DNA of 64,000 bases. Source: Pelagibacterium flavum (GTDB lineage: Bacteria > Pseudomonadota > Alphaproteobacteria > Rhizobiales > Devosiaceae). Under the pieces are notes generated by a model, which ran no database searches, was not told where the DNA came from, and saw only the letters and a program-made list of their open reading frames with translations. Made by a program: the position numbers and the translations under genes. The stretch is taken from assembly GCF_025854335.1 (NCBI RefSeq), contig NZ_CP107716.1:3527001-3591000 (forward strand), given 5' to 3'. How positions within the stretch are numbered: the first letter of the stretch is position 1; the number at the start of each line of letters is the position of its first letter. This document shows, in pieces, positions 3,721 to 11,951 of this stretch.

Positions 3721-4842
3721 CTATGCCCCCTTCTCTTGCGGCACGGGATCGGGGTCTCGCTTCTGCCGGGTGGCCATGAAGGCAAATTCGACCGGACGGC
3801 GCAGCATGTTGCTCATGGCGCCGGTGAAGAGGATCACGAGGGCCTGGATGGTGACGATCATCTCGCGGGTGATGGCGGGCATGGTAAAGGCCAGCTCCTG
3901 CCCGCCCTGATAGAGCACCCCGAAGAGCAGCGCCGAGAGCCCCACCCCGATCGGGTGCGCCTTGCCCATGAAGGCCACGGCGATGCCGACAAAGCCGGTG
4001 CCAGCGACGTAACCCAAAATCAGGCGTCCGTGGGCGCCGGCGGTGTCGTTGACGGCGACCATGCCGACCAGCGCGCCGGAAATGGCCATGGTGGCCATGA
4101 TGAGCTTTGCGTTGGACATGCCCGCATAGCGCGCGGCGGTGCCGTTGTGTCCCATGGTGCGCAGGGCGTAGCCGAATTTGGTGTGCCAGATCAGGATGTA
4201 GACGCCGACCAGGGCGAGAATGGCGAGGATGAAGGAGATGTTGACCGGGGTGTTGCGCAGCAAGGGTATCCATTCGGACAGGAACGGCACACGGGTCACA
4301 TCGACGATGCGGGCGCTCTCGTCGGAGTTGATGTTTTCGGGCTTGAGAATGCGCGAGATGATGTAGCTCATCATCGAGGTGGCGATGAAGTTCATCATGA
4401 TGGTGGTGATAACCACATGGCTGCCGCGCTTGGCCTGCAGATAGCCGGGAATGAAGGCCCAGGCGCCGGCGAAAAGCGCCGAGGCGATCATGATGAGCGG
4501 CAGGGCGAAGGCCCAGTGCAAGCCACCGACGGCCAGAGCGACCAGGATGGCGCCGAGCCCGCCGACATAGGCCTGCCCTTCGCCGCCGATATTGAACAGC
4601 CCGCCATGAAAGGCCACGGCGACGGCAAGGCCGGCAAAGATGAAATTGGTGGTGTAATAGAGCGTGAAGCCGAACCCGTAGCCATAGCCGAAGGCGCCAT
4701 AGAGCATGATACGCACGGCTTCTATCGGGTTTTCACCCACGATCAGAACGACGATGCCCCCGATGATGAAGGCCAGCGTGACGTTGAGCACCGGCAGAAG
4801 GATGACATCGACCCAGCGGGGCAAGGGCATGGACGCACTCAT
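3721..4842 (-). CDS. Nucleoside ABC transporter permease (first subunit)
   Basis: Permease of 373 aa, the longer partner of the pair (NupP/YufP-like). It has the BPD_transp_2 features FHGGLFNIGGEGQAYVGG and YALRTMGHNGTAARYAGMSNAK, the coupling loop that contacts the ATPase. Multiple hydrophobic helices run through the protein, with a charged C-terminal tail rich in Arg, Asp and Lys. The ATG at 4842 overlaps the ATPase stop by 4 nt (ATGA), so the two are probably translated together. Part of the importer for nucleosides that the downstream enzymes degrade. Confidence 0.9.
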   Translation of the reverse strand: MSASMPLPRWVDVILLPVLNVTLAFIIGGIVVLIVGENPIEAVRIMLYGAFGYGYGFGFTLYYTTNFIFAGLAVAVAFHGGLFNIGGEGQAYVGGLGAILVALAVGGLHWAFALPLIMIASALFAGAWAFIPGYLQAKRGSHVVITTIMMNFIATSMMSYIISRILKPENINSDESARIVDVTRVPFLSEWIPLLRNTPVNISFILAILALVGVYILIWHTKFGYALRTMGHNGTAARYAGMSNAKLIMATMAISGALVGMVAVNDTAGAHGRLILGYVAGTGFVGIAVAFMGKAHPIGVGLSALLFGVLYQGGQELAFTMPAITREMIVTIQALVILFTGAMSNMLRRPVEFAFMATRQKRDPDPVPQEKGA

Positions 4843-6431
4843 TGGCTCGACTCGGTGGATTTGGTTTTCTCGCCCGCCTTGACCCCGGCCATGAGCAGGC
4901 CCAGTTCGCCCTCGTCGGCGGTGACCGGATCGGCTTCCCCGACGATCTGGCCATCGAACAGGACGACAATGCGGTCCGAAAGGGAGCGGATTTCATCAAG
5001 CTCGACGGAAACCAGCAATATGGCCTTGCCAGCGTCGCGCATCTTGATGATCTGATTGTGGATGAATTCGATGGCGCCGATATCGACGCCGCGGGTCGGC
5101 TGGCCGACGATCAGAACGTCGGGGTCGCGCTCCATCTCACGGGCCAGGACAATCTTTTGCTGATTGCCGCCTGAGAAATTGGCGGTCTTGAGATCGGCAT
5201 TGGCGGGGCGGATGTCGAATTTTTCGATATGGCGCTGCGCTTCGGCGCGAGCGGCCTTGACGTCGAGCATCAGCCCTTTGCCGTAATTCTCATGATAGCC
5301 CAGAATGGCATTTTCCCACTCGAAGAAATTGGTGACCAGCCCCATGCGGATACGGTCTTCGGGCACATGGGCCAGACCGTTGCGGCGCAGCATGGCGGCG
5401 CTGTCTTCGTTGACGGCGGTCACGTCTTGGCCGTTGATGGAAATGGTGCCCGATTTGGCGGCGCGCATACCGGCTACGCATTCGAGCAATTCAGACTGCC
5501 CGTTGCCCGCGACCCCGGCCACGCCGAGAATTTCGCCGGCCCGCACGCTGAGCGAGATGCCCTTGAGCCGCTCGGTGCCCGCATCATCGGTGACGACGAG
5601 ATTTTTGACGTCCAGCAGCACGTCGCCGGGCTTTGCTTCTTCCTTGTGAACACGCAACAGGACGCGGCGGCCCACCATGAGTTCGGCCAATTGCTCGGGG
5701 CTGGTCTCCGAGGTGACCAGCGATTCCACCATCTGGCCCTGACGCATGACCGAGACCGTATCGGTGATCGCCATGATTTCGCGCAGCTTGTGGGTGATCA
5801 GGATAATGGTCTTGCCCTCGTCGCGCAGCGTCTTGAGCACCTTGAACAGGTGATCGGCTTCAGCCGGGGTGAGCACGCCGGTCGGTTCGTCGAGGATAAG
5901 GATATCAGCGCCGCGATAGAGCGCCTTGAGAATTTCCACCCGCTGCTGCTGGCCGACCGACAGGTCCTGGACCAGCGCATCGACGGGAACATTGAGCCCG
6001 TAATCGTCGGCAAGGCGCTGCAGCTCGCGGCGCGCCTTTTCGACACTGGGGCTCAAAAGCGCCGAATCCTCGGCACCCAGAATGACGTTTTCGATGACCG
6101 AGAAATTGTCGACCAGCATGAAATGCTGGTGAACCATGCCGATGCCAAGCGCCAGCGCGTCGGAGGAATTGTGAATGACGACCGGGCGGCCGTTGACGAC
6201 GATCTCGCCGCTGTCGGCGTGGTAAAAGCCGTAGAGGATCGACATCAGGGTCGATTTTCCGGCCCCGTTCTCGCCCACGATGCCATGCACCGTGCCGCGC
6301 GCAACGGCCAGGTCTATATCCCTGTTGGCGTGAACCGGCCCGAACCTCTTGTTGATCTTTTTCAGTTCGATCGCAAGAGAGGTGTCAGCGGCCGGAGCCG
6401 GCCGCTGAACGTTTTCGGTTTGCGTGTCCAT
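4839..6431 (-). CDS. Nucleoside ABC transporter ATP-binding protein (two fused ATPase domains)
   Basis: The 530-aa protein contains two tandem ABC domains, as in the sugar/nucleoside CUT2-like importers (NupO/YufO, RbsA-like). Domain 1 has Walker A GENGAGKS, signature LSVGQQQR and Walker [12 protein letters not shown]. Domain 2 has a degenerate Walker [10 protein letters not shown], signature FSGGNQQK and [13 protein letters not shown] degenerate second site is normal for this family. It powers nucleoside import at the inner membrane. The gene is second in the operon, 31 bp after the binding-protein gene. Confidence 0.93.
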
Positions 6432-6462
6432 TATCGGACCCTTCCCTTAAAGGGGCGACGAA

Positions 6463-7470
6463 TCAGACCGGGCAGGACTCGTCTTCGCGGTAGTCGTGAA
6501 CGACGATTTCGCCCGAGACGATCTTGGCCGTGATCTCGTCAACCATGGCGCGCATCTCGTCGGTGATCAGTTCGGCGTTGTTTTCGTCAAAAGCCGCCCC
6601 GACACCTTCTTCGGCGAGACCGAGGACCTGAACGTCGTTGGTCCATTCATCATTGGCAAAATCTTCGAAGGCGTCGTAAACGGCAACGTCAACGCGCTTG
6701 AGCATCGAGGTCAGAACCTGTCCGGGGTGGAGATGGTTCTGGTTGGAGTCCACACCGATGCCGAGAACGCCGGCATCCGCCGCGGCCTGGAGAACGCCGA
6801 CACCGGCACCGCCTGCGGCGTGATAGATGACGTCCGCGCCACGATCGATCTGGCTGCGCGCAACTTCGGTGCCACCACCGGGGTTGTTGAACGCATCAAA
6901 GCCCGTGCCGATGGCCGTTTCGATCACTTCGATGTCGGGGTTCACGTAAGCGGCGCCCTGCTTGTAGCCGCAGCCGAAAGCCTGAAGCAGCGAGAAATCG
7001 AAGGCCGGAATGAAGCCGATGGTGCCCGTTTCGGTGGCCATGGCAGCCAGCGCGCCGACCAGGAAGGAGCCTTCATGCTCCTTGAAGACCACCGAGCGCA
7101 CGTTGTCGATATCGTCAACGACGGTGTCGATGATGACAAACGAGGTATCCGGGAAATCAGGGGCAACGGCGCGCAGTGCGGTTTCCCAGGAAAAGCCCGG
7201 CAGAACGATGGGGTTGTTGCCGCGCGCGGCAAACTGGCGGATGGCCTGTTCGCGCTGGGCATCGCCGGCAATTTCAAGATCCTGATAGTCCTGCCCGGTA
7301 TCGGTCTTGAACAGTTCGGCGCCGGTATAGGCCGCCTCGTTGAACGAAGCGTCGAACTTGCCGCCGCCATCATAAACGAGCGCGGGATCGGCAAGGGCCG
7401 TGCCGGCCAGAAGTGTGGTCAGGGCGACGCCGGCGAGGGCGGCGATGCCAGTCTTTGTTGTTTTGGACAT
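6463..7470 (-). CDS. BMP-family nucleoside-binding protein
   Basis: Periplasmic solute-binding protein of the BMP/Med/PnrA family, 335 aa, first gene of the nucleoside operon. A signal peptide of about 27 residues ends at LLAGTALADPAL; there is no lipobox Cys, so it is predicted to be soluble in the periplasm, as usual for Gram-negative members. Family motifs include GGKFDASFNEAAYTGA, IVLPGFSWETAL and AAGGAGVGVLQAA. BMP proteins of this kind bind purine or pyrimidine nucleosides, which agrees with the enzymes downstream. Two Cys residues (FGCGY and the C-terminal ESCPV) are present. Confidence 0.92.
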   Translation of the reverse strand: MSKTTKTGIAALAGVALTTLLAGTALADPALVYDGGGKFDASFNEAAYTGAELFKTDTGQDYQDLEIAGDAQREQAIRQFAARGNNPIVLPGFSWETALRAVAPDFPDTSFVIIDTVVDDIDNVRSVVFKEHEGSFLVGALAAMATETGTIGFIPAFDFSLLQAFGCGYKQGAAYVNPDIEVIETAIGTGFDAFNNPGGGTEVARSQIDRGADVIYHAAGGAGVGVLQAAADAGVLGIGVDSNQNHLHPGQVLTSMLKRVDVAVYDAFEDFANDEWTNDVQVLGLAEEGVGAAFDENNAELITDEMRAMVDEITAKIVSGEIVVHDYREDESCPV

Positions 7471-7589
7471 GATTGATGCTCCCTATTCACGGGCTGCAGA
7501 AAGGGGCCCGGCGACGGCCGGTGCATTTCCACGCGCGATGGGTTCAGATACAATCGCGCAAACAAGGCAGACGCAATAGAGAATTTCAG

Positions 7590-7613
7590 TTTTTTGACCA
7601 TTTGGGCAAAAAA
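7590..7613. promoter_or_regulatory. AT-rich dyad upstream of the nucleoside operon
   Basis: TTTTTTG (7590-7596) and CAAAAAA (7607-7613) form an inverted repeat with a 10-bp spacer, about 120 bp upstream of the binding-protein ATG and within the 177-bp gap to the CoxG-like gene. The half-site reads TTTTTTGACC and resembles the perfect dyad at 55542-55565, upstream of the peptide importer. It is a possible operator or promoter element; the factor is unknown. A homopolymer coincidence cannot be excluded. Confidence 0.35.
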
Positions 7614-7647
7614 TTTTGGGATTGCGGTAAACCGCGAAGATATCCGC

Positions 7648-8115
7648 TTAAAGCTGCGGCTCCAAAGGGACCACCCTGGCGCCCATGGCCGTGCCGAAAC
7701 GTTCGAAAAAGCCGTCTATGACCTTCTGGGCGGAATTGCCGACGATGGCCCTGCCCAGTTTCATGATCTGTCCCGAAGCGCCCCCGGTGGCCTCAAAGCT
7801 TAAAAGCGTGGCCGTATCGAGATCCATCAAGGTGATATCGGCCGAGGCCTGGGCCTTGCCCAGCAGCCCGCCCCTGCCCTGACCGGTCAGGGTATAGCTT
7901 ATGGCCGGATCGATATCGGAGAGAAACAGATCGCCTTTGAAGGTTGGCTGGACCACGCCGAGATTGACGGAGATTTCGAGTTCGAGCGCGGTATCGGACA
8001 CCCAGCGGATCGACTTGCAGCCGGGAATGCAGGCCTTGAGCACTTCAGCATCGTTGAGCGCGTTCCAAACCGCGAGCCGATTGGCTTCGACCCTGTAGCG
8101 TCCACCGAAATCCAA
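7648..8115 (-). CDS. CoxG-like SRPBCC-fold protein
   Basis: Protein of 155 aa resembling carbon-monoxide-dehydrogenase subunit G (CoxG/DUF1857-like SRPBCC fold). The N-terminal pattern DFGGRYRVEANRLAVWNALN and the motif VLKACIPGC are typical. No cox structural genes are nearby, so it is an orphan; in such cases a role in membrane recruitment or hydrophobic ligand binding is possible but unproven. I chose the TTG at 8115 because it is preceded by GAGGAAGA at correct spacing and gives the usual family N-terminus. An in-frame ATG at 8223 would add 36 residues not like the family. Confidence 0.8.
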   Translation of the reverse strand: MDFGGRYRVEANRLAVWNALNDAEVLKACIPGCKSIRWVSDTALELEISVNLGVVQPTFKGDLFLSDIDPAISYTLTGQGRGGLLGKAQASADITLMDLDTATLLSFEATGGASGQIMKLGRAIVGNSAQKVIDGFFERFGTAMGARVVPLEPQL

Positions 8116-8273
8116 GCCGTCTTCCTCTTCATTTAACTCAAACACCGTGTATGCGGCTTTTTGGCACCAATGGCGATAAAACAGCGCCATGTTGTGCATG
8201 CGCAATTGTCTTATCTGTTGCAAGGCGGAATCATGTCACCACATCTGCCAAAGTTGCAACAGGGACGTGGGCA

Positions 8274-9479
8274 ATGAGCACCGAGATGACCCAAACCGAA
8301 GCTCCCCAGCTTATGGACAAACCGCTCCAGTATCTGGACAAGGCCGTGGCGGCGATCAAGGATCTTGGGCTATGGCCCGAGGGCGAGTCCGGCGAAGCGC
8401 CGATCACCGGACTTCTGGCCGAAATCACCCATCTCGACGACACAAAAGTCATCCTGATCGGGCGCGTTCTGACCCAGGCGAGTGCCTTTAACGAGGTGGT
8501 GCGCACTCAGGTCGCTGCCATGAATGTGGGCGAGCGCTACGAGGACATCACAAAATCGTTCAACTCGATCCGTGACGATGCCAAGGGCATGGTCGACCAG
8601 CTCGAGGACGGCAAGATCGATATTTTCGAGCGGGCCTCGAACGTGTGGATGAAGGTTTCGCGCGGCGATATCGCGGCGCGGTTCGACAAGATTCGCGACA
8701 CCTATCTCGACGTCTCGAAAGACACCAAGGACCAGATCGACCGCGAACACACGATCCTTGAAGCCTATCGCGACTTCCGCGGCGCGCTCAAGCAGGCCGA
8801 AGTGATGGCGCTCGAAGTGCTCGAAATCGCCAGCGCGCAGCTCGAGCAGCGCAAGGTTGACCTCAAGGCTGCGACCGAAAAGCTCAACGCGTTCACCGAA
8901 GGCACGCCCGCCGACCGGGCGCGGCTGGAGATGGCGCGGGACGAACGGGTGCGCGACCTGCAGAACGAGGAACGCCGCTATCAGATCGCCAAGGATCTTT
9001 CGGACAATCTGACGATCTCCTATTCGACCTCTGAAGTGATCATGGCGCGGCTGATGCAGACGACCAATGCCAAGGAGCGTGTCTATCAGCAGTCGATCTC
9101 GTTCTTTTCGACCAACGAAACCGTGCTCACAGCCCTTTCGGCCTCGTTTACGGGCCTGTTCGGGCTCCATGAATCCACCGAAACGCTCAATGCCATGAAA
9201 GAAGGCATGAGCCAGAGTCTCGAAACGCTTTCGGACATCGGCGGCAAGGTGCAGGAAGAAGCGCTCAAGGCCGGGTATGGTCCGACCATCCGCGCCGATG
9301 CGGTCAAAAAGCTCGTCGACAGTGTGGTGAGCTATCAGGAAAAGAGCATCGCCATCATCTCCGAAATGCGCGACCAGGCCACCAAGAATTCGGCTGAAAT
9401 CCGTGACGCCGTCGAAGACGGCAAGAAGCGGCTGGCAACGCTCGCCGCTGAAGGCAACGCCCTCGTTTCGGCCCGTTAG
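8274..9479 (+). CDS. TelA-like coiled-coil protein, first gene of a three-gene module
   Basis: Mostly alpha-helical protein of 401 aa. Long heptad-rich segments lie around residues 140-260 and 330-400. The region ARLMQTTNAKERVYQQSISFF followed by TNETVLTALSASFTGLFGLH has the layout of TelA (toxic-anion-resistance) family proteins, but the resemblance is weak and judged by eye. There is no signal peptide or membrane segment. ATG 8274 follows AGGGA; an upstream in-frame start at 8151 would add 41 unlikely residues. The gene is 17 bp before the next, and the three genes almost certainly form one operon. Function unknown. Confidence 0.72.
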   Translation: MSTEMTQTEAPQLMDKPLQYLDKAVAAIKDLGLWPEGESGEAPITGLLAEITHLDDTKVILIGRVLTQASAFNEVVRTQVAAMNVGERYEDITKSFNSIRDDAKGMVDQLEDGKIDIFERASNVWMKVSRGDIAARFDKIRDTYLDVSKDTKDQIDREHTILEAYRDFRGALKQAEVMALEVLEIASAQLEQRKVDLKAATEKLNAFTEGTPADRARLEMARDERVRDLQNEERRYQIAKDLSDNLTISYSTSEVIMARLMQTTNAKERVYQQSISFFSTNETVLTALSASFTGLFGLHESTETLNAMKEGMSQSLETLSDIGGKVQEEALKAGYGPTIRADAVKKLVDSVVSYQEKSIAIISEMRDQATKNSAEIRDAVEDGKKRLATLAAEGNALVSAR

Positions 9480-9496
9480 GATGCGATAACCCGATT

Positions 9497-10447
9497 ATGG
9501 CAAGCGGTGGGGCAATAACGGGACAGACTGGCAAGGCGCCGCTGGACGATGTGATGCTGGCCATGGACGTGGTGGATACACTGCGCCATGAGCAAAATCT
9601 CGTGGCTCGCGAACTGGGGGCCACCGCCCGCGAAGCCGAACTGATCGAGCGCCTGCGCAAGATCTATCACGACCAGGGGATCGAGGTTCCAGACCATATC
9701 CTCAAGGAAGGCGTCAAGGCGCTGGCCGAGAGCCGGTTCACCTATACCCCGCCGCCCAATACATTCTCCAAACGGCTGGCCCGGCTCTATGTGAGCCGGC
9801 AGCGCTGGGGGCGGCCCGTGCTGATCGGGGCGGCGCTGCTGGCTGTGGTGCTGGGAGGATATTTTCTCGTCTATCGGCCCTATCAGGCGGGCATGGAGGC
9901 GGCGGCGCGGATCGAGCTGGCCGAGGGACTGCCGGCCCGGATGGACGAGATCTATCAGCAGATTTTCAACGAAACCAAGGTGCAGTCGGCGCTCGAAGTG
10001 GCCGAGCCCTGGGTAGAGCGCGGCAAGGCGGCGGCCGAGCGCGGCGATCGCGAGGGCGCGCTGGCGGCGATCGATCAGCTCGAAGCCATCCATGAAACGC
10101 TTCTGGCCGAATATTCGATCCGTATCGTCAACCGGCCGGGCGAATCCACGGGGATCTGGCGGTTCCCCAAGGACAATACCGAAGCGACCAATTATTACCT
10201 CGTGGTCGAGGCGATCGGCCCCGAGCAGAATCCGGTGACACTGCCGATCACCAATGAGGAGACAGGGCAGACCGAAGAGGTTTCGACCTGGGCCATAAGG
10301 GTGCCCGATGTCACCTATGAGGCGGTGCGCGCCGACCGGCAGGATGACGGCATCATCCAGCGCAACATTTTGGGCATAAAGCAGTACGGGTTCCTTGATA
10401 CCGACTACGCCATGCCGGTCATGGACGGGGCGATTACCCAATGGTGA
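9497..10447 (+). CDS. Single-span membrane protein of unknown function (DUF6384-like), second gene of the module
   Basis: Protein of 316 aa. Residues 1-100 are soluble and helical (DDVMLAMDVVDTLRHEQNLVA), a proline-rich YTPPPNTF leads to a basic stretch, and one transmembrane helix lies at about 106-126 (VLIGAALLAVVLGGYFLVY). The following helical hairpin and beta-rich C-terminal domain would then be outside the cytoplasm. It resembles proteins listed as DUF6384 in alphaproteobacteria; this is from memory. It starts 17 bp after the TelA-like gene and ends 7 bp before the third gene, so the products probably act together at the inner membrane. Confidence 0.7.
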   Translation: MASGGAITGQTGKAPLDDVMLAMDVVDTLRHEQNLVARELGATAREAELIERLRKIYHDQGIEVPDHILKEGVKALAESRFTYTPPPNTFSKRLARLYVSRQRWGRPVLIGAALLAVVLGGYFLVYRPYQAGMEAAARIELAEGLPARMDEIYQQIFNETKVQSALEVAEPWVERGKAAAERGDREGALAAIDQLEAIHETLLAEYSIRIVNRPGESTGIWRFPKDNTEATNYYLVVEAIGPEQNPVTLPITNEETGQTEEVSTWAIRVPDVTYEAVRADRQDDGIIQRNILGIKQYGFLDTDYAMPVMDGAITQW

Positions 10448-10454
10448 GGCTGCA

Positions 10455-11951
10455 ATGAGTGTAAGCGGACCTCAGGCCATGCGGGCGCTCGATGATGCGC
10501 TGCGCGACATAAGGCGCGAGGAAGACGACATCACAAAGCGCATCGCGCGGGCCAATGAGCGCGTCGGCAAGCTGCGCGAGACCGAATTGGGGCAATTGCG
10601 GGCGCTGGCCACCGTGCGGCTTTCGCCCCAGGTGCGGGCCGAATTGACCGGAACGCTGAGCCAGGCCGAGAGCCGGGCGCGCGAGATGCTCAAGAGCCAT
10701 GCCGCCGCGATGGCCGACATGGAAAAGGTGCTGGCGGGCAAGGAGACAGAACTTGCCAAGCTGAGCACCGAGCGGCAGGACCTGCTCGAAAATACGCAGA
10801 AATGGCAGGCCGAAATCGACGCCCTGGACGAACCCGTCAAGGCGGCGCTGGCCAATGACGCGGCCTATGGGGCGCTGGTTGCAGAGCGGGCCGAGACCGA
10901 AAAGGTCGCCAATGAAGCCGATCGCAAGGCCGATATGGCCGAGGCGGACCGTGAAGAAAAGGGCAAGCCCTATCGCGACGATCCGCTGTTTTCCTATCTG
11001 TGGGATCGCGGATACGGCACTGGTGCCTACAAGGCCGGCAACATAACGCGCATGCTCGACGAGTGGGTGGCGCGGCTGGTGGGCTTTGCCGATGCGCGGC
11101 CCAATTATGCAATGCTGATCGCCATACCCGAGCGCCTGCGCGAGCATGCCGAGAAACTGGCCGCCGATGCTGACGCGCTCGACGAGAAGGTTCGGGCGCG
11201 CGAGACGGCGGCGCTGGATGCGGCCGGTGGCGCGAAGGCACGTGCGGCGCTGGAGGCGGCACAGGCGCGGGTTGAGGCCATCGATGCGGAATTGCTGGCT
11301 ATCGAGGACGAGCGCGAGAACCTGACGGAAAAGCAAAAGCAGATTGCCGACGGGGGCGACCCGGCCTTCGCCAAGGCCGTGGACATGCTGGCCGAGGCGA
11401 TCAGCGCCACGGGCATCGAGAAGCTTCTGACCGAAGCGCGGGCCACCCGCACCGAGGAGGACGACGCGATCGTGGTGCGGCTCGAGGAGACGCGGCGGCG
11501 CATTGCCGAAGAGCAGCTCGAGCTCGACGATGAACGCAGCCGGCTCAAGGTGCTCGAGGCGCGCAGGCGCGAGCTCGAGGACATAGAGTTCGAGTTCAAG
11601 AAATCGCGCTATGACGACCCCCGGTCCCGGTTCGGCAATGACAAGCTGGTGGGCGATCTTTTGACCGAATTTCTCAAGGGCGGGATGACCGCGGCGGCCT
11701 ATTGGGGCCAGTGGCGGGAGTCCCAGGACTGGACCGGCACATCGGGCCCGATCGTTCCCACTTCGCGGCCCCGGTCGAAAAGATCGAAAGGCGGGTTTTC
11801 GGTGCCGCCGGGCGGCTTTTCGCCACGGCCGCCTTCGGGCGGCAATTGGGGCGGCTTCTCGCGCCCCCGCAGCGGCGGCTTTGGCGGCGGCGGATTCAAG
11901 ACCGGTGGCGGTTTCAAGGGCGGCGGATTCAAGACCGGCGGCGGTTTCTGA
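10455..11951 (+). CDS. Long coiled-coil protein with glycine/phenylalanine-rich tail, third gene of the module
   Basis: Protein of 498 aa. Residues 1-200 and 245-390 are charged, heptad-rich and predicted coiled coil, separated by a conserved-looking globular patch (RDDPLFSYLWDRGYGTGAYKAGNITRMLDEW). A linker rich in Pro, Ser and Arg follows. The last roughly 25 residues are repeats of the type GGGFKTGGGF, alternating glycine with Phe and Lys. No signal peptide or membrane helix is visible. ATG 10455 lies 7 nt after the upstream stop. The architecture suggests a scaffold or filament-forming partner for the two upstream proteins; no function is known to me. Confidence 0.72.
   Translation: MSVSGPQAMRALDDALRDIRREEDDITKRIARANERVGKLRETELGQLRALATVRLSPQVRAELTGTLSQAESRAREMLKSHAAAMADMEKVLAGKETELAKLSTERQDLLENTQKWQAEIDALDEPVKAALANDAAYGALVAERAETEKVANEADRKADMAEADREEKGKPYRDDPLFSYLWDRGYGTGAYKAGNITRMLDEWVARLVGFADARPNYAMLIAIPERLREHAEKLAADADALDEKVRARETAALDAAGGAKARAALEAAQARVEAIDAELLAIEDERENLTEKQKQIADGGDPAFAKAVDMLAEAISATGIEKLLTEARATRTEEDDAIVVRLEETRRRIAEEQLELDDERSRLKVLEARRRELEDIEFEFKKSRYDDPRSRFGNDKLVGDLLTEFLKGGMTAAAYWGQWRESQDWTGTSGPIVPTSRPRSKRSKGGFSVPPGGFSPRPPSGGNWGGFSRPRSGGFGGGGFKTGGGFKGGGFKTGGGF

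Follow-up and report, generated by a model that had tools for sequence, protein, structure and literature searches.

A three-gene set with a DUF6384 membrane protein kept together on bacterial chromosomes, large plasmids and a giant phage

Three adjoining genes and their recurrence as a set

The DNA analysed here, referred to as the window, is a stretch of 64,000 nucleotides from the chromosome of Pelagibacterium flavum (contig NZ_CP107716.1, positions 3,527,001 to 3,591,000). Positions 8274-11951 of the window are occupied by three open reading frames (ORFs) on the same strand, designated A, B and C, with intergenic gaps of 17 bp between A and B and 7 bp between B and C, as had been reported in a preliminary description made from the sequence letters. 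These genes stay together on the chromosomes of soil and marine bacteria and recur as a set on plasmids of very large size and in a giant phage of Yersinia, which suggests that they encode a so far undescribed protein machine attached to the membrane. The genes are as follows:

8274-9479, plus strand: gene A, 401 amino acids, a mainly helical protein
9497-10447, plus strand: gene B, 316 amino acids, a DUF6384 (PF19911) single-span membrane protein
10455-11951, plus strand: gene C, 498 amino acids, coiled-coil-like, with a conserved centre and a glycine-rich tail

Of 61 related genomes, 38 contain A, 39 contain B and 40 contain C; wherever A is present, in all 38 cases, the coordinates show B and then C adjoining it. 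One further genome (G022) carries B and C only, and another (G031) retains a fragment of C at a contig edge. Within the window's family the genes occur in 32 (A), 33 (B) and 34 (C) of 37 genomes, and all three are found in 6 of 24 genomes from other families of the same order. Broader sampling used 100 loci, comprising 80 loci kept from the 482 relatives that a scan of named genomes with A had found, in which A is present by construction, and 20 loci around B, with some genomes occurring in both groups. The complete set was recovered in 92 of these loci. Seven of the eight incomplete loci are cut by contig ends, with 38-843 bases left, and the eighth (L038, from G022) lacks A and contains no remnant of it. 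With gene starts estimated, the A-B gap has a median of 30 bp (97 loci, -8 to 311) and the B-C gap a median of 4 bp (93 loci, -4 to 148). One genome of another alphaproteobacterial order (G533) holds two separate complete sets (L169 and L170), both ending in GGFKTGGGF. The preliminary description had treated scattered genes as the outcome that would tell against a module; since the survey finds them together far beyond the genus, that objection falls away. More distant occurrences are sparse: with the window's own genome counted each time, the class sample yielded C in 2 of 142 genomes, and in the phylum samples each gene was likewise found in 2 genomes, out of 398 for A and for C and out of 299 for B, the phylum searches for A and C having scored at most three to four first-look candidates per genome, a depth that does not prove absence.

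Ratios of nonsynonymous to synonymous substitution rates (dN/dS) for five species pairs lie at 0.03-0.14 for A, the slowest-evolving of the three genes, 0.10-0.24 for B and 0.10-0.29 for C. Because these low values coincide with ordered recurrence in the sampled loci, A, B and C are not chance ORFs; they are real genes under purifying selection. A scan for consensus promoters and terminators returned no site. In one locus outside the window (L046:2136-3306, genome G044), A is split over two frames next to open B and C genes, reflecting either a frameshift or an assembly error.

Relatives of A with 39-65% identity are encoded by 11 plasmid records, all of plasmids of at least 323 kb, two of which are typed as conjugative. 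The order A-B-C holds in all 10 of the matched plasmids that were examined. Six carry an annotated A, a DUF6384 family protein and C, namely PA83 and pNY8709-IMP of P. aeruginosa, pMPPla107 of P. amygdali, FeN3W of Pseudomonas, pBASL58, and p195_1 of Bradyrhizobium. The four others, which have no usable annotation (L155, L156, L159 and L160), contain three such ORFs consecutively. Pfam confirms B on L155, L156 and L159, and the assignment of B on L160 follows from its position and its ends; C was confirmed by tblastn on L155 and L160 and by profile comparison on L156 (99.9%), L159 (99.1%) and PA83 (99.9%), against a C alignment that does not contain the Pseudomonas plasmid members.

When 50,697 phage records were searched, A matched only the Yersinia jumbo phage phiR1-37 (262 kb), represented by two accessions, in which g190, g191 and g192 follow the same order as A, B and C. 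The product of g190 is 41% identical to A, and that of g191 scores 92.1 bits against DUF6384 and 99.7% in alignment to the B family. The weakest match of the phage set is g192, which hhalign places at 97.5% (E 7.7e-12) when Pseudomonas plasmid members are part of the C alignment used and at 6.0% when they are absent from it; its position, its tail and its matched C centre support its assignment as a probable C. Since g190 and g191 are secure, the lowered weight of g192 leaves our estimate for the assembly proposed below unchanged. Besides phiR1-37, four putatively viral contigs in IMG/VR carry A, three of which show three ORFs in a row, with B confirmed on one. Further scans for viral relatives returned phiR1-37 alone (one scan) or none (three scans), and tblastn with a single bacterial C protein (P0166) found no match among phages and, among plasmids, only three alphaproteobacterial plasmids that were already among the carriers. 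The passages of PMC13030884 consulted do not mention g190-g193.

Trees of A, B and C were built from 29 chosen taxa, with the P. silesiensis, Rhizobium, Methylorubrum and Microvirga copies left out. The phage copy joins those of FeN3W, pMPPla107 and pBASL58 with support of 0.990 for A, 0.675 for B and 0.929 for C, and the phage and the five Pseudomonas copies group together with support of 1.000, 0.999 and 1.000, respectively. Because the three trees agree in this way for the phage and the megaplasmids, movement of the set as a unit would be the simplest reading, one that long branches require to be held with caution. Mirror-tree correlations of 0.91-0.95 (29 taxa) and 0.75-0.92 (22 taxa) carry little weight, as they have no unrelated-gene control. 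That A, B and C stay together on chromosomes of Alphaproteobacteria, on megaplasmids of Gammaproteobacteria and in a jumbo phage makes it very likely that they have a joint job, used by cells and mobile elements alike.

Presence in a jumbo phage, in IMG/VR contigs and on large plasmids, including the two conjugative ones, would also suit a device for conflict between phages and plasmids that confers immunity or exclusion at the inner membrane and was later fixed as a core set in the window's family. A weak match of C to LmuB of the Lamassu system (PADLOC; 22.7 bits, E 1.2e-5) points the same way, but it spans residues 12-383, which are mostly coiled-coil-like sequence. Moreover, A is distributed through most genomes of the family, unlike patchy defence loci, and no nuclease, ATPase or known effector domain scores above cut-off, so that we regard this explanation as improbable.

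The DUF6384 protein and the tail of C

Of the three products, B is the one that belongs to a defined family. Its residues 11-316, nearly the whole length, match Pfam DUF6384 (PF19911) with 457.6 bits against a cut-off of 25, and the same cut-off was passed by all 10 phage, plasmid and viral-contig B proteins tested. The preliminary description had suggested profile comparison with both DUF6384 and the TelA family PF05816; the first is matched by B, and the second is not matched by A, as detailed below. B is a full member of a family whose function Pfam terms unknown. DUF6384 is not mentioned in the literature searched, which included few subscription papers, and no described role was found; the PADLOC profiles gave no match for B. 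Three parts of the protein can be distinguished:

9542-9793, plus strand: N-terminal helical part, residues 16-99, with conserved LDDVMLAMDVVDTLRH; moderate model confidence (about 50-86)
9818-9874, plus strand: transmembrane span, residues 108-126; mean Kyte-Doolittle hydrophobicity 2.35
9875-10444, plus strand: putative outer part, comprising the remaining membrane helix, a helical hairpin and a strand-rich domain (residues 206-316); from the model and conservation

In a Kyte-Doolittle scan of A, B and C, residues 108-126 of B form the sole strongly hydrophobic segment, the means for A and for C each peaking near 1.0. B thus crosses the inner membrane once, and its outer part is confidently modelled, with a predicted local distance difference test score (pLDDT) mostly above 90. 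Basic residues precede the span, which suggests an N-in topology, with residues 16-99 probably cytosolic and the C-terminal part probably periplasmic. The single-span membrane protein with an outer domain that had been proposed from the letters is thus borne out by one span and a long, well-modelled C-terminal part, whose placement on the outer side is the probable one. The strand-rich domain terminates in a tryptophan that is invariant in the alignments. The PDB fold matches listed for B cover the helical hairpin rather than this domain, so that they do not tell whether its fold is new or already known.

No Pfam or NCBIfam family matches C above its cut-off. Most of the protein evolves fast, with the best conservation in its centre (residues about 161-240) and at its end, where the following features lie:

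10935-11150, plus strand: conserved centre, residues 161-232, DPLFxYLWxRGYGT ... NYAMLxxIPxRLxEH
11892-11915, plus strand: internal GFKTGGGF copy, residues 480-487
11925-11948, plus strand: C-terminal octapeptide GFKTGGGF, residues 491-498

These two exact copies substantiate the repetitive glycine-rich tail of the 498-residue protein that had been noted before. To judge from weak matches to coiled-coil protein families, C also looks like a coiled coil, as proposed at the same time. Such a match is that to the SMC model over residues 226-378, with 21.4 bits (E 4.6e-5) against a cut-off of 567.35; coiled coils give matches of this kind, which would account for the weak SMC and LmuB scores alike. 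An SMC-type ATPase was considered for C and rejected, the SMC score falling far below cut-off and no ATPase family scoring above it.

The same scores bear on the idea that the set does not guard the membrane but forms a filament or a cytoskeletal scaffold for placing large DNA molecules or cell structures. The size of the 11 plasmid carriers and of the phage genome would fit this idea, as would the label 'chromosome segregation ATPase' given to some C relatives. Set against these are the SMC and ATPase results, the chromosomal location of the set in the window's genome, and the conserved outer domain on B, which would be unexpected in a purely DNA-positioning device; the idea seems to us quite unlikely. 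Public labels of C relatives include 'YgcG' as well as 'chromosome segregation ATPase', and the labels currently attached to relatives of A and C look misleading.

Of 93 C proteins, 89 have an end that fits the pattern [F/W/Y]-x-[T/S/N]-[G/S/T/R]-[G/D/E]-x-[F/I/L]. The four exceptions are two one-residue variants (L051 and L055), a 277-residue frame near a contig end (L115) and the C protein of the A-less locus L038. The core of the motif is concentrated at this end of the protein, with 12.9 occurrences per 1000 residues over the final 90 positions and 0.15 elsewhere. On plasmids, viral contigs and the phage the pattern holds in 10 of the 12 C proteins listed, with those of pBASL58 and Rhizobium off at one position; the forms seen there, often repeated, include SFSTSDSF (the Pseudomonas form), GFSSSDSF and DFRTGGSF, among others. 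Identity to the window's C amounts to 16-23% for the Pseudomonas proteins and 12% for the phage protein, so that the tail motif persists where the remaining C sequence is only 12-23% identical. Tail-motif forms were also seen in more distant C relatives, from a gammaproteobacterial metagenome-assembled genome, Roseomonas, Acetobacteraceae and Omnitrophica (P0166, P0197, P0202 and P0227).

In the window's genome, a DNA pattern for GFxTGGxF followed by a stop codon occurs once, in C itself. The motif in that form is therefore not a general tag, and its partner more likely resides inside the set. Among full-length C proteins, only that of L038, the locus that lacks A, shows the motif in no form at all, and this single case suggests A as the candidate partner of the tail. 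The conserved terminal peptide and the A-less locus together offer a direct handle on the interaction. In L038 both B and C are very divergent, and the set there is perhaps decaying.

Gene A and the comparison with TelA

Like C, A matches no Pfam or NCBIfam family above cut-off. Neither protein has a strong membrane span or an export signal recognizable by eye, and both look cytosolic. In the AlphaFold2 model of A, block pLDDT is 76-97 for residues 131-280 and drops to 48 by residue 300:

8670-9164, plus strand: two long helices (residues 133-205 and 212-297) that in the AlphaFold2 model seem to form an antiparallel hairpin
9165-9293, plus strand: segment of very high conservation and low model confidence, residues about 298-340

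The second of these segments is a candidate partner-binding or switching region. Relatives of A carry public labels such as 'cell surface protein' and 'merozoite surface protein 3b', and comparison of A with the PADLOC profiles gave RTasSLATT at 11.8 bits (E 0.036).

The preliminary description had called A TelA-like, a designation that the family profile does not sustain. PF05816 has no match in A at E up to 1, it is missing from the families listed (25 of 37) for 19 A relatives at E up to 10, and a search for it found nothing in the window's genome and matches in 3 of 14 control genomes. By this profile, neither A nor its relatives nor the genome lend support to membership of A in the TelA family. 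A remoter relationship was assessed with hhalign, using a deeper A profile and an alphaproteobacterial TelA alignment made from 8 of 11 matches (L137, which has an internal stop, and L142 and L143, which are partial or under cut-off, were excluded). The resulting score of 30.3, with a probability of 8.4%, is the best that A attains among the profiles compared, and a forced alignment follows a collinear path over the full length. Of the shuffled TelA profiles, none of the 150 column-shuffled and none of the 100 reversed-block ones reach this score, but 2 of the 100 block-shuffled ones do. Among the other controls, reversed TelA scores 18.9, and A scores 27.8 against C and 27.0 against its own reversed profile; TelA against reversed C gives 30.8. 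Because the TelA score lies within reach of the controls and PF05816 is not matched, the statement that A is TelA is unsupported.

Fold comparison adds hints that do not reach significance. In BFVD, hits of A named TelA, toxic anion or tellurite resistance stand at ranks 2, 16, 17 and 40 among the 50 listed, none with E <= 0.001, and A may be built like TelA. A search of the PDB with the model returned a helical background plus ClyA-type proteins; the fold resemblance of A thus extends weakly to TelA and to membrane-active helical proteins of the ClyA and BAR types. An intracellular relative of the ClyA/Xax alpha-pore formers, with the set controlling membrane permeabilization, is the least probable explanation that we considered. 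A gave no significant match to ClyA or XaxA by sequence or by Foldseek; it also differs from them in its partners and in showing no export signal by eye.

A stronger claim on these data is that of a divergent TelA-type stress system conferring tolerance to oxyanions or cell-wall agents, in which A would be a remote TelA homologue, B would replace the membrane protein XpaC and C would be an added cross-linker. The BFVD names, the best hhalign score with its column shuffles, and the StiP genes that adjoin the set on two megaplasmids all favour such an origin. The low hhalign probability, the block shuffles that reach the score, the higher score of TelA against reversed C, and the failure of both the fold search at E <= 0.001 and the PF05816 profile tell against it, and we consider it rather unlikely. 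The Listeria locus lmo1966-lmo1967 is a TelA-XpaC stress locus (PMC12791056). The present set recalls such a two-gene locus, in which a TelA protein has a partner, through the fold hints that link A to TelA proteins of viruses and through the StiP neighbours just mentioned, but A lacks PF05816, the membrane partner is a DUF6384 protein and a third gene is nearly always present. A further difference, which extends to the Ter systems, is that profile searches of the window's genome found no TelA, no StiP and no TerD.

A possible membrane-tethered scaffold and its surroundings

We give about two chances in five to the proposal that A, B and C form one three-component, membrane-tethered scaffold, inherited and moving as a unit, with a role in maintaining or protecting the inner membrane. 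Of this proposal, the analysis shows the order of the genes, their joint inheritance, the purifying selection on them, the one membrane span and the conservation of the tail; the topology, contacts, assembly and membrane function described next are conjectural. In the scaffold, B would sit in the inner membrane with its small helical domain in the cytosol and its larger domain in the periplasm. The mainly helical cytosolic protein A, with its long hairpin, would assemble on the cytosolic domain of B at the inner face of the membrane, and C would cross-link the assembly through its long coiled coil, docking by its C-terminal motif of an aromatic residue, threonine and glycine or aspartate, most likely on A. 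B might then sense the state of the periplasm or the membrane, and the assembly might stabilize or remodel the inner membrane, as has been proposed for the TelA-XpaC and PspA systems.

This membrane role is argued by analogy with those systems. In envelope stress systems of the phage shock protein (PspA/ESCRT-III) type, coiled-coil proteins are found with partners in the membrane, and the layout of the genes varies (PMC11237479); A-B-C would resemble them in its presumed architecture. PspA_IM30, PspC and toastrack are not among the families that the three proteins match at E up to 1, and the main text of PMC11237479 contains neither DUF6384 nor tellur- nor TerD. There is a real chance that the set is a kind of its own beside the membrane-stress scaffolds. 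In a bolder and more tentative version, it would be an undescribed, self-contained machine, with a DUF6384 receptor, a polymer of A on the inner face and C as a cross-linker closing the assembly through its repeated terminal peptide. Megaplasmids and jumbo phages would have spread this machine among bacteria and would use it for the defence or remodelling of the inner membrane of their host, and in the Pelagibacterium/Devosia family it would have become a core component of the cell. As the set is mostly kept in that family, its function in the cell should be accessible by simple gene removal. No described function was found for A, B or C, in line with the earlier statement that none was known for the set; the literature surveyed, by titles and the starts of abstracts, dealt with TelA, XpaC, PspA and StiP, with Pelagibacterium and Devosia, with phiR1-37 and with megaplasmids.

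On the related Pseudomonas megaplasmids pMPPla107 and pBASL58, a StiP gene (StiP-PELOTA on pMPPla107) lies within 3 kb upstream of A, and a peptidyl-tRNA hydrolase-like gene is likewise found upstream of A on both. The StiP genes are the sole contextual hint found for a role in stress, which would be a tentative assignment. StiP is found on 3 of the 11 plasmid or phage records and TerD on 4; with so few carriers, and with neither gene in the window's genome, the set is taken to be independent of the Ter genes.

Upstream of A in the window, at 4839-8223 on the minus strand, lie divergent genes that by eye encode a BMP-type transporter and a coxG-like protein. In the window's family, neighbours of these kinds are usually present upstream on the other strand, in clusters of 75, 71 and 63 of the 100 loci. 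At 14 listed loci, mostly from other families, the surroundings vary, and the BMP-type and coxG-like genes are therefore taken as local synteny and not as parts of the set. On pMPPla107 (L153:2627-8839), genes for NYN-LOTUS, StiP-PELOTA, metallophosphoesterase and PTH2-like proteins stand in a row upstream of the set, and on the P. aeruginosa plasmid PA83 (L151:17782-18828) the Type IV CRISPR gene csf2 is located about 5 kb beyond C.

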